Below, in pieces: positions 57,789 to 60,915 of a stretch of DNA of 64,000 nt. Position numbers and translations under genes: made by a program. The DNA lies in contig NZ_PGTZ01000011.1 in the NCBI RefSeq assembly GCF_002798015.1, forward strand, positions 62,001 to 126,000, given 5' to 3'. Below the pieces are notes generated by a model. It was not told the origin of the DNA. It worked only from the letters and a program-made list of their open reading frames with translations, and searched no databases. This stretch comes from Luteimicrobium subarcticum (lineage in GTDB: Bacteria; Actinomycetota; Actinomycetes; Actinomycetales; Cellulomonadaceae). Positions within the stretch are counted from its first letter, which is position 1; each line of letters starts with the position of its first letter.

Positions 57789-57909
57789 GGAGGGTCCTTT
57801 CGGGGTGGTGAGGGTCGCGCCGACGGCCGTCCTCTGCGAGGAGGGACAGGTGTCGTGGGCGCCGTCCGAGTCTAGTCGGTCGCCACGGCGGGGCGCCCCC
57901 CACTGGTGC

Positions 57910-57915
57910 GATGCT
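57910..57915 (+). promoter_or_regulatory. -10 hexamer (GATGCT) of the PPOX gene
   Basis: GATGCT followed by six bases and the ATG at 57922, a leaderless-type position. Confidence 0.45.
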
Positions 57916-57921
57916 GGGCGC

Positions 57922-58391
57922 ATGCCTCGAACCATCGCCACGAACACCCGCGTCGACCGCGACGCGCTCGTCGACTTCCTTCGCTCGCGCCACGACGGCG
58001 TCCTCGTCACCGCGCGTGCCGACGGCTCCCCTCAGCTGTCCCCGGTGACGTTCGGGGTCGACGCGGCCGCCGCGTCGTCGTCTCGACATATCCGGAACGC
58101 GCGAAGGTGCACAACCTGCGCCGCGACCCGCGGGCGTCGTTCCTCGCGCTCGGCGACGACTTCGGCGACGCCTGGGTGCAGGTCGACGGGACGGCCGAGG
58201 TGCTGGACGTGCCCGACTCCGTCGAGCCGCTCGTCGAGTACTACCGCGCTGCCGCGGGCAAGGAGCACCCGGACTGGGACGAGTACCGGGCCGCGATGGT
58301 CGAGCAGGGCAAGTCCGTCGTGCGGATCACGATCGACCGCTGGGGACCGATCGCGACGGGCGGCTTCCCCGCGCGTCTCGCGAACGACTGA
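57922..58391 (+). pseudogene. frameshifted PPOX-class (F420-dependent type) oxidoreductase
   Basis: From the ATG at 57922 the frame reads [21 protein letters not shown] and [19 protein letters not shown], the N-terminal half of a small split-barrel PPOX protein. Around 58065-58080 the frame is lost. The C-terminal half continues in a different frame as VVVSTYPERAKVHNLRRDP, FLALGDDFGDAWVQVDG and so on to the stop at 58391. The total of 470 bases is not a multiple of three, as expected from one single-base deletion (or two-base insertion) in the GC-only run GCGGCCGCCGCG. The family binds flavin or F420. Both halves look well conserved, so the lesion is recent or a sequencing error. Confidence 0.75.
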
Positions 58392-58412: not shown

Positions 58413-59453
58413 TCAGAAGAGCGCTGGCTGACGCTCACCGGGCTGGTCGTGCACGGCCTCCCCGCCTGCGGGACGCTCGCGAACGCCCCATCGCCGGCCC
58501 GGTTCCTCGCCCTGGTCCAGCCCGTGCTTGCGAACGAGTGGCGCAGCACGGTCGGCCAGCCAGCGCTGGTAGTCGCGCGACGCGTACGCCCGGTCGCCGT
58601 AGACCCGCCGGTACCCGTCGACGAGGTCGGGCCGGTACCCGGCGAGCCACTCGAGGTACCACTCCCGCGCGCCGGACCGGAGGTGCAGCGGCAGGACGGT
58701 CACCCGGGACGCACCGGCGGCGGCCACCTCCCGGAGCATCGCGTCCAGGTGCGCCGTCGAGTCCGTGAGCCACGGCAGGACGGGCGCGAGCATGACGTGG
58801 CAGCGCAGCCCCGCGTCGACGACCGCGCGGACGAGGTCGAGCCGGGCGCGCGGCGACGGCGTGCCCGGCTCGACGGCCAGGTGCAGCTCCTCGTCGAGCG
58901 TCGTCATGGACACGCCCACCCCGACGTCCACCTGCTCCGCCGCGTCCTGCAGGGCGGGCAGGTCGCGGCGCAGCAGCGTGCCCTTCGTGAGGATCGAGAA
59001 GGGCGTGCCAGACGACGCGAGCGCGTCGATCACGCCCGGCATGAGCCGGTAGCGCCCCTCGGCGCGCTGGTACGGGTCGGTGTTGGTGCCGAGTGCGACG
59101 TGCTCACGCTGCCAGGACGGGCGCGCGAGCTCGGCGCGCAGGACCTCCACGAGGTTGACCTTCACCACGAGCTGCCGGTCGAAGTCCTCCCCCGTGTTCA
59201 GGTCGAGGTACCGGTGGGTGCCGCGGGCGAAGCAGAACGTGCAGCGGTGACCGCACCCCCGGATCGGGTTGACCGTCCAGCGGAACGGGACGTGCGACGC
59301 CGCCGGGACGTGCGACAACGCCGACCGGCACGTCACCTCGTGGAACGTCGTGCCCGCGAACTCCGGGGTGCGCACGGTGCGGACGAACCCGGCGCGCCGC
59401 AGCCCGGGCAGTGCGCCGTCGTCGGCGCCGAGGGTCTGACCGTCCCATCGCAT
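58413..59453 (-). CDS. radical SAM protein, SplB/Rv2578c-like
   Basis: Iron-sulphur, SAM-dependent radical enzyme of 346 residues. The cluster motif is CGHRCTFC (C-x3-C-x2-C), preceded by WTVNPIRG and followed by FARGTHRYLDLN. SAM-contact strands are present (LGTNTDPYQRAEGRYRLM, ILTKGTLLRRDL, VSMTTLDEEL). This is the Rv2578c family, distantly similar to spore photoproduct lyase; its reaction is not known. A perfect LexA box lies seven bases before the ATG at 59453, so it should be induced by DNA damage. It is next to hisS, as in mycobacteria. Confidence 0.9.
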   Translation of the reverse strand: MRWDGQTLGADDGALPGLRRAGFVRTVRTPEFAGTTFHEVTCRSALSHVPAASHVPFRWTVNPIRGCGHRCTFCFARGTHRYLDLNTGEDFDRQLVVKVNLVEVLRAELARPSWQREHVALGTNTDPYQRAEGRYRLMPGVIDALASSGTPFSILTKGTLLRRDLPALQDAAEQVDVGVGVSMTTLDEELHLAVEPGTPSPRARLDLVRAVVDAGLRCHVMLAPVLPWLTDSTAHLDAMLREVAAAGASRVTVLPLHLRSGAREWYLEWLAGYRPDLVDGYRRVYGDRAYASRDYQRWLADRAAPLVRKHGLDQGEEPGRRWGVRERPAGGEAVHDQPGERQPALF

Positions 59454-59460
59454 GACCTGA

Positions 59461-59478
59461 TTCGAACACGTGTTCGAA
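59461..59478 (-). promoter_or_regulatory. LexA (SOS) box upstream of the radical SAM gene
   Basis: Perfect 18-bp palindrome with half TTCGAACAC. It contains the actinobacterial/Gram-positive SOS consensus (TCGAAC-N4-GTTCGA) without mismatch, starting eight bases upstream of the ATG at 59453. It also lies 34 nt beyond the hisS stop. Confidence 0.85.
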
Positions 59479-59511
59479 CGGCGGTCAAGCGCGACACCCG
59501 GCCCGCGCGCG

Positions 59512-60915
59512 TCAGCCCGCCGCGACCACCGAGGGCCACCGGTCGCGGTCCGCCGGCGACCACGTCGCGGGGTCGGCCTCGACCTGCTCGCCCGAGCGGA
59601 TGTCCTTGACCTGGTGGGTGGTCTCGGTGCCGTCCGCGGTGACACCCGCGGGGAACCACACGAACGGGATGCCGCGCCGGTCGGCGTAGCGGATCTGCTT
59701 GCCGAACTTCGCGGCGCTCGGCGCGACGTCCACGGGGATGCCGCGGGCGCGCAGCGCCGCGGCGACCGCGTCGGACGCCTCGCGGTGCGTCTCGTCCATG
59801 ACGGCGACCAGGACCGCCGACGGCACGGAACGCGTCGCACGGACCAGGTCGGCAGACAGCAGCCGCGACACGAGCCGCGAGACCCCGATGGACAGACCGA
59901 CGCCCGGGTACGTGTTCGCGCCGTCGGACGCGAGCGTGTCGTACCGCCCGCCCGAGCAGATCGACCCGAGCTGCTCGTGGCCGACGAGCACGGTCTCGTA
60001 GACGGACCCCGTGTAGTAGTCGAGGCCGCGCGCGATCTTGAGGTCGGCGACGACCACGCCGGGCGCGCGGCGTGCGGCGGCGTCGATCAGCGCGCCCAGC
60101 TCGGCGAGCCCGGTCTCCAGCAGCTCGGTGCGGGCACCGTGCGCGTCGGCGAGCGTGCCGACACGGTCGACCACCGACGCGTCGTCCCCGCTGATCGCCG
60201 CGAGGTCGAGGCAGGCCGCGGCCTGCTCGGCCGTGGCGCCGGCCTCGGCGACGAGGAGCCCGGCGACCGCGTCCCGCCCGATCTTGTCGAGCTTGTCGAT
60301 GCTCCGCAGCACCGCCTCGACATCGTCCAGCCCGAGCCCGCGGTAGAAGCCCTCGGCGACCTTGCGGTTGTTCACCAGGATGCGGACGGGCGGTACCCCG
60401 ATCTCGCGCAGCGCACCCAACGCCTCCGCCATGACGAGCGGCAGCTCGACCTCGAAGTGGTACGGCAGCTCGCCCGCGCCCACGACGTCGATGTCGGCCT
60501 GCACGAACTCGCGGAACCGGCCGTCCTGCGGCCGCTCGCCCCGCCACACCTTCTGGATCTGGTAGCGCTTGAACGGGAAGGCCAGGTGCCCCGCGTTCTC
60601 CAGCACGTACCGCGCGAACGGCACGGTCAGGTCGAAGTGGAGCCCGAGCTGCTTCTCACCCCGGGTCGACCCCTCCGCCGCAGCGGTGTCGGAGTCGCTA
60701 CCGGCCTCCTCCTGCAGCCGGCGCAGGACGTAGACCTCCTTGGAGGTCTCCCCCTTGCGCAGCAGCTGGTCGAGGGGCTCGACCGCGCGGGTCTCGATGC
60801 CCGCGAAGCCGTGCAGCTCGAAGGTGCGCCGCAACGTGTCGAGCACGTGCTGCTCGACGACGCGTCCCGCGGGGAGCCATTCGGGAAAACCTGACAGAGG
60901 GGTGGGTCGTGCCAT
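59512..60915 (-). CDS. hisS: histidyl-tRNA synthetase (HisS)
   Basis: Charges tRNA-His. The 467-residue class II synthetase starts PLSGFPEWLPAGRVVEQHVLD. It has motif 2 FKRYQIQKVWRGERPQDGRFREFVQADIDVVG, the histidine-binding LKIARGLDYYTGSVYETV (HisA loop), SICSGGRYDTL, motif 3 VGLSIGVSRLVSRLL and a C-terminal anticodon-binding domain (AVMDETHREASDAVAAALRARG). The ATG at 60915 has GGGAGGA upstream. A hairpin separates it from the MBL-fold gene, and a LexA box follows its stop. Confidence 0.96.
   Translation of the reverse strand: MARPTPLSGFPEWLPAGRVVEQHVLDTLRRTFELHGFAGIETRAVEPLDQLLRKGETSKEVYVLRRLQEEAGSDSDTAAAEGSTRGEKQLGLHFDLTVPFARYVLENAGHLAFPFKRYQIQKVWRGERPQDGRFREFVQADIDVVGAGELPYHFEVELPLVMAEALGALREIGVPPVRILVNNRKVAEGFYRGLGLDDVEAVLRSIDKLDKIGRDAVAGLLVAEAGATAEQAAACLDLAAISGDDASVVDRVGTLADAHGARTELLETGLAELGALIDAAARRAPGVVVADLKIARGLDYYTGSVYETVLVGHEQLGSICSGGRYDTLASDGANTYPGVGLSIGVSRLVSRLLSADLVRATRSVPSAVLVAVMDETHREASDAVAAALRARGIPVDVAPSAAKFGKQIRYADRRGIPFVWFPAGVTADGTETTHQVKDIRSGEQVEADPATWSPADRDRWPSVVAAG

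Follow-up and report, generated by a model that had tools for sequence, protein, structure and literature searches.

A perfect palindrome stands directly in front of a radical SAM gene in the 64 kb stretch of DNA analyzed here (the window), which raises two questions: whether it is a LexA operator (SOS box), and what the enzyme encoded behind it does. We consider it highly probable that the palindrome is a LexA operator set within the promoter of a probably single-gene, likely leaderless SOS unit, and that the product is an enzyme folded like spore photoproduct lyase, with damaged DNA or a damage product as its most likely substrate.

The palindrome, its gene, and similar sites in the genome

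The putative operator (59461..59478) is a perfect 18-nt palindrome, TTCGAACACGTGTTCGAA; on the plus strand it reads ttcgaacacgtgttcgaa (ttcgaacac|gtgttcgaa) and is identical to its own reverse complement. Exactly 7 bases (59454-59460) separate it from an ATG on the minus strand (59453-59451). The initial annotation had reported a perfect palindrome seven bases from a start codon, and direct reading of these positions bore this out. The gene that begins there (58413..59453, minus strand) encodes a 346-aa Rv2578c family radical SAM protein with the cluster motif C67-x3-C71-x2-C74, as assigned from the open reading frame, profile matches, and a structural model. The protein scored 509.4 bits against the NCBIfam model of the Rv2578c family (NF038135, cut-off 430) and 57.3 bits against the Pfam radical SAM superfamily (PF04055, cut-off 29.5). 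It shares with the Rv2578c family the MRW start and the CX3CX2C motif but differs in the residue just before the third cluster cysteine, which is Y in 51 of 52 sequences and F only in the window protein. The label SplB/Rv2578c-like given earlier therefore holds on both counts, since the protein passed NF038135 and has spore photoproduct lyase (SplB) as its closest solved structure.

Upstream on the same strand lies hisS, encoding histidine-tRNA ligase (59512..60915, minus strand), and downstream lies a convergent pyridoxamine 5'-phosphate oxidase-like gene (57906..58391, plus strand), both assigned from open reading frames and profile matches. Because hisS ends at 59512 and the downstream neighbor is convergent, the radical SAM gene looks like a single-gene unit that excludes hisS and has its promoter within the 58 bp after it. 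A role of the box for hisS itself was ruled out; the palindrome lies past the hisS stop codon on the same strand.

The window site matches all 12 positions of the actinobacterial LexA regulon box, TCGAACN4GTTCGA. When the longer pattern TTCGAACN4GTTCGAA was searched with up to two mismatches, the window contained a single match, compared with a mean of 0.05 per dinucleotide shuffle. That 5 of 100 shuffles of the window held at least one such match is the one point in favor of a palindrome arisen by chance, an explanation to which we give practically no weight: the genome-wide scan that the initial annotation had called for found TCGAACN4GTTCGA at five places in the 3.63 Mb genome and the reversed control pattern at none, and the position of the box is kept across genera, as described below.

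Two of the other sites in this genome stand before imuA' and a HEPN-dinB pair. One 14-mer core lies 34 bp before imuA' (NF058630). Another perfect box, on contig C1 near 71184 (locus L005), ends 22 bp before a candidate ATG of a HEPN protein gene (PF18726) with a SAV_6107-like product; TTGACA stands just upstream of this box and the gene directly precedes dinB, so that the sequence allows the HEPN-dinB pair to be considered possibly SOS-controlled. No gene was assigned to the remaining two of the five sites, one near the L18 ribosomal protein gene and the other close to where a UvrA-like gene ends. Both lexA (258 bits) and recA (573 bits) were found in the genome, each with a near-perfect CGAACN4GTTCG upstream.

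Conservation of the box and layout of the probable promoter

We compared 80 actinobacterial loci, the best 80 of 584 by protein similarity, which represented 29 genera, were rich in Mycobacteriales, and did not include M. tuberculosis itself. The best box within 50 bp of the start matched at least 9 of 12 positions in 80/80 of these loci and at least 10 of 12 in 73/80; the threshold of 9 was reached in 0/77 windows placed 350-400 bp upstream and in 3.1% of shuffles. All 12 positions were perfect in 30 of the best 80 of 584 loci, including 18 of the 21 mycobacterial ones, and all 21 mycobacterial loci scored at least 10. The distance to the start was nearly fixed, with the 16-mer ending 7, 8, or 9 bp before it in 6, 53, and 21 of the same loci, respectively. 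Among 29 genomes of the same class, which overlap the 80-locus set in at least two cases (L050 and L097) and from which the window's own locus (L124) was left out, at least 9 of 12 positions matched within 100 bp in 29/29 (far windows, 7/29; shuffles, 6.1%), and the perfect core GAACN4GTTC was present near the start in 24/29, versus 0/29 far windows. Because it is conserved in relatives, the comparison of sequences says that the site is functional.

Deeper in the phylum, 60 regions hand-picked among the matches listed were inspected, with bit scores of ~394-496 (L133-L172), 287-380 (L173-L178), and 102-244 (L179-L192). Genes closer to Rv2578c carried a perfect GAACN4GTTC near the start in 37/40 and 6/6 regions (43/46 sampled), the three closer members without a perfect core being L149, L155, and L159; in contrast, it was found near the start of 0/14 of the remoter relatives sampled. 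In two families (f27 and f38), lexA had GAACN4GTTC in 4/4 cases, and the motif was absent from 3/3 remote radical SAM relatives looked at. In eight genomes of a third family (f19), GAACN4GTTC was absent from 8 radical SAM and 13 lexA-type genes. An AAACN4GTTT-like site was present at 7/13 of these lexA-type genes (L232-L238, L240-L244, and L249) and at 0/8 of the radical SAM genes; judged by its sequence, it is perhaps a shifted LexA motif. Four plasmid-borne actinobacterial copies were also fetched. Those of Nonomuraea and Streptomyces had a perfect core and that of Arthrobacter had one change, while the copy on Tsukamurella tyrosinosolvens plasmid 21 (L208) had GAAC-N5-GTTC, with one extra base between the arms and with -10-like and -35-like parts remaining. 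In this Tsukamurella record, the radical SAM gene lies downstream of hisS with one gene between; the window has the same order.

When the window and the 80 loci were aligned on the box, promoter-like elements appeared at constant offsets. TTGAC begins eleven bases upstream of the box, and TG occupies box positions 9-10. Box position 17 is T in 95% of rows, and its mirror position is A in only 38%. TTGACA was matched in 5 or 6 of 6 positions at the fixed offset in 50/80 loci, compared with 0.8% of shuffles. Among the same best 80 of 584 loci, the T closing the -10 was present in 76 and the TG in 67, and the -10 stood 5-7 nt from the start codon in all 80. For the window we accordingly assign, from the sequence and the conserved offset, a putative -35 element TTGACC (59483..59488, minus strand) 17 nt before the -10, and, from the sequence and the conserved T and TG, a putative extended -10 element TGT-TCGAAT (59460..59468, minus strand) with 8 of its 9 bases inside the box. 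The ATG (59451..59453, minus strand) follows 6 nt past the putative -10, so it is probably a leaderless start, given its sequence and the spacing in relatives. Against this layout, the window -10 has only 4/6 matches to TATAAT, and a simple promoter scan, which demands A at -10 position 2, found 0 promoters. A trade-off between -35 and -10 strength was considered and dropped: at nine loci whose -10 starts with TCT, the -35 scores ranged from 1 to 5 with no clear trend.

For this organism we infer LexA binding, induction, the transcription start, and the reaction as follows. In undamaged cells, LexA bound to the palindrome would stand directly in the way of RNA polymerase: in a promoter composed of TTGACC, a 17-nt spacer, and TGT-TCGAAT, the operator takes up the greater part of the spacer together with the -10 region, so that only the last -10 base lies outside the box. 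DNA damage would activate RecA, LexA would cleave itself, and the radical SAM gene would be switched on. Transcription would most likely start at or very near the ATG, giving a leaderless mRNA, and this would account for the short, fixed distance from box to start. The right arm of the box would serve at once as half operator and as -10, which would explain why it is kept better than the left. The radical SAM enzyme made from the gene shares its fold with spore photoproduct lyase and most likely acts on damaged DNA or a damage product. The operator-in-promoter layout thus offers a reason for the fixed distance between box and start codon.

The window mRNA is probably leaderless, judging from these distances. 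Such a start would not be strange in the phylum, since M. tuberculosis LexA is, according to the available text of one report, translated from a leaderless mRNA (PMC2897130). A different arrangement was seen in a family that we guess to be Streptomyces-like (f6), in which 10/11 loci have 30-33 bp, and the eleventh 66 bp, between the end of the 16-mer and the start, with a GAGG-type ribosome-binding site between box and start; in a Streptomyces locus (L218), the box lies 43 bp before the start and a ribosome-binding site of the GAGG type is present too.

The better conservation of the right arm would also be expected if the palindrome were kept only as a promoter element, and the motif bound by E. 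coli ArsR has been reported to look like the SOS box of mycobacteria (2021 paper, PMC8151990, available part), which would fit reading by another regulator. We regard both versions as improbable. The left arm, which a promoter would not need, is strongly conserved too across the window and the 80 loci; in this genome, a box of the same type is found at lexA, recA, imuA', and dinB; and in proteobacterial relatives its place is taken by the LexA motif of the respective group. A LexA operator within the promoter remains the preferred reading.

Agreement with local LexA motifs and the published record

The proteobacterial relatives belong to the PA0069 family (NF033668), whose model all six of the proteobacterial proteins tested passed; with 208 bits, the window protein falls short of its cut-off (360), and PA0069 is a sister family. 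Its genes resemble the window gene in having SOS-type boxes, namely the alpha LexA box at 10/12 loci and an E. coli-type box in Aeromonas. The alpha loci comprised 11 that were hand-picked and a twelfth that was fetched later, several being close relatives. A perfect GTTCN7GTTC lay upstream in 9/11 (control windows, 0/33; shuffles, 0.7%) and was present at the twelfth; the loci without it were Pseudorhodobacter, with 7/8 positions, and Methylobacterium bullatum. In Aeromonas caviae, CTGTATATATAAACAG was found 12-15 bp before the candidate starts of the radical SAM gene, and CTGTATAAAAAGACAG at lexA. A Sphingomonas plasmid with the radical SAM gene also bears a lexA with two alpha boxes. At the Legionella adelaidensis gene, none of the three box types was found, nor was a lexA on the plasmid record. 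Wherever the radical SAM gene had a box and the lexA accompanying it in its genome or record was inspected (our own genome, G007, G037, G118, G167, Aeromonas, and Sphingomonas), the motifs at the two genes agreed, in 7/7 cases. A Gemmatirosa locus (L212) was left out of the box scoring.

That SplB-like radical SAM genes can be under SOS control has already been reported in several phyla, according to the available parts of the following papers. A 2012 survey found splB to be SOS-controlled in alpha- and beta-Proteobacteria and did not observe this in gamma-Proteobacteria (PMC3323433); the Aeromonas box is a single exception to the latter statement. SplB-like genes were tied to SOS gene neighborhoods in 2013 (PMC3765255). 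In 2020, a radical SAM protein was placed in the core Gram-positive SOS regulon, in a set including M. tuberculosis and Leifsonia, and another in the Balneolaeota SOS regulon (PMC7739468). A 2021 paper listed SplB in Bacteroidetes SOS networks, with SOS regulation in several species (PMC8565304). In Streptomyces venezuelae, ChIP-seq placed a LexA site at the radical SAM gene vnz_31145, whose expression increases 20-fold under mitomycin C (PMC9380542); the site given, TCGACCGTTCGCTC at -61, differs from the box that we observed in the Streptomyces-like loci. A 2026 paper advised caution in calling the Streptomyces Rv2578c-family gene SplB, the RMSD being over 4 Å (PMC12924846).

Like the window gene, these published SplB or radical SAM genes have LexA-type boxes; the operator-in-promoter layout is not described for them in the available parts of the papers, and their subfamily may differ. 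Our literature search, from whose reach two likely primary sources fell outside, returned no paper naming Rv2578c together with LexA and none linking PA0069 with LexA. For the mycobacterial homologue, which the initial annotation placed among LexA targets, it thus gave no confirmation; however, all 21 mycobacterial loci compared here scored at least 10 of 12 for the box, and the 2020 set whose core regulon holds a radical SAM protein includes M. tuberculosis. The layout was likewise not found described in the parts of the literature consulted, and we claim no priority for it. What this analysis adds is the putative promoter layout, the reach of the conservation into the phylum, the difference from remoter relatives, and the match to the local LexA motifs. 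The earlier prediction of damage-inducible expression is strongly supported at the sequence level by the conservation of the box, by the other genomic boxes, and by the published SplB-like genes.

Fold and likely function of the enzyme

The AlphaFold2 model of the window protein (pLDDT 83, pTM 0.82) had spore photoproduct lyase (PDB 4fhc, 4k9r, and others) as its nearest solved structure, with Z 20.5 compared to 15.7 for the next family. The match covered nearly the whole chain (Foldseek E 1.4e-10) at an identity of 13-16%; lower-Z matches included the other radical SAM folds of lipoyl synthase and RlmN. A sequence search of the PDB with the single protein gave no match up to E 0.1, and only a profile built from 52 members gave a match to spore photoproduct lyase, a weak one at E 0.01-0.03.

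The conserved residues differ from those of spore photoproduct lyase. The only invariant cysteines were C67, C71, and C74, each in 52/52 sequences, the next most frequent cysteine occurring in 36/52. In contrast to spore photoproduct lyase, for which Cys141 of the Bacillus subtilis enzyme is proposed as hydrogen donor in the available text of PMC9850924, the family of the window protein is without a fourth invariant cysteine. Moreover, the position of Tyr98, which the alignment to 4k9r (Y98F) sets immediately behind the third cysteine of the cluster, is F in 49 of 52 sequences and Y in 3. Because neither the fourth cysteine nor Tyr98 is conserved, the model-based comparison suggests that the enzyme shares the fold of spore photoproduct lyase but probably not its exact chemistry. 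The Rv2578c family is widespread and is not simply to be equated with spore photoproduct lyase.

The box had earlier been taken as support for a DNA-repair role of this family. Box and fold do favor such a role, but the box does not prove it and the residues of spore photoproduct lyase chemistry are not conserved; a DNA-repair role is what we infer for the Rv2578c-family enzyme. It is possible, though less likely in our judgment, that LexA controls the gene and that the enzyme, without repairing DNA, modifies RNA or else a nucleotide or metabolite required once damage has occurred. The restriction of invariant cysteines to the three of the cluster motif in the 52 sequences is compatible with this, as are the lower-Z matches to lipoyl synthase and RlmN. 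On the other hand, the DNA-repair enzyme spore photoproduct lyase is the nearest fold by ~5 Z units over nearly the whole chain, and SOS-type boxes of different sequence stand at the gene in different phyla. We therefore retain damaged DNA or a damage product as the most likely substrate. Damage control that is deeply conserved, with LexA motifs differing from group to group, gives good reason to test the family as a DNA-repair enzyme.

A broader proposal, which we offer as speculation, is that Rv2578c/PA0069 enzymes belong to the core of SOS repair throughout the bacteria, acting on a lesion other than the spore photoproduct and without a conserved hydrogen-donor cysteine; that LexA proteins with at least three unrelated motifs have each adopted the gene; and that in Actinobacteria the operator has fused with a leaderless -10. 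If this were true, repressor, polymerase, and ribosome start would converge on one short site.

Several observations concern the wider family. Several members give a match roughly twice as long as usual within a single open frame (for example, G257:C1:2919019-2920992 and G149:C195:1117-3102), a length that suggests an insert of the intein type; a model of the Rv2578c family with an intein exists in NCBIfam. A Priestia plasmid relative is a 271-aa protein, which we considered a possible spore photoproduct lyase. Selenomonas ruminantium plasmid pSRC6 (L216) encodes radical SAM mobile pair protein B, which is distantly related, together with its partner A and a MarR-type regulator, and these genes adjoin one annotated as chloramphenicol acetyltransferase. 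Distant radical SAM relatives were also present in eight phage or virus records of a phage collection (H92-H99), including Acidianus bicaudaviruses and phages from human faeces.
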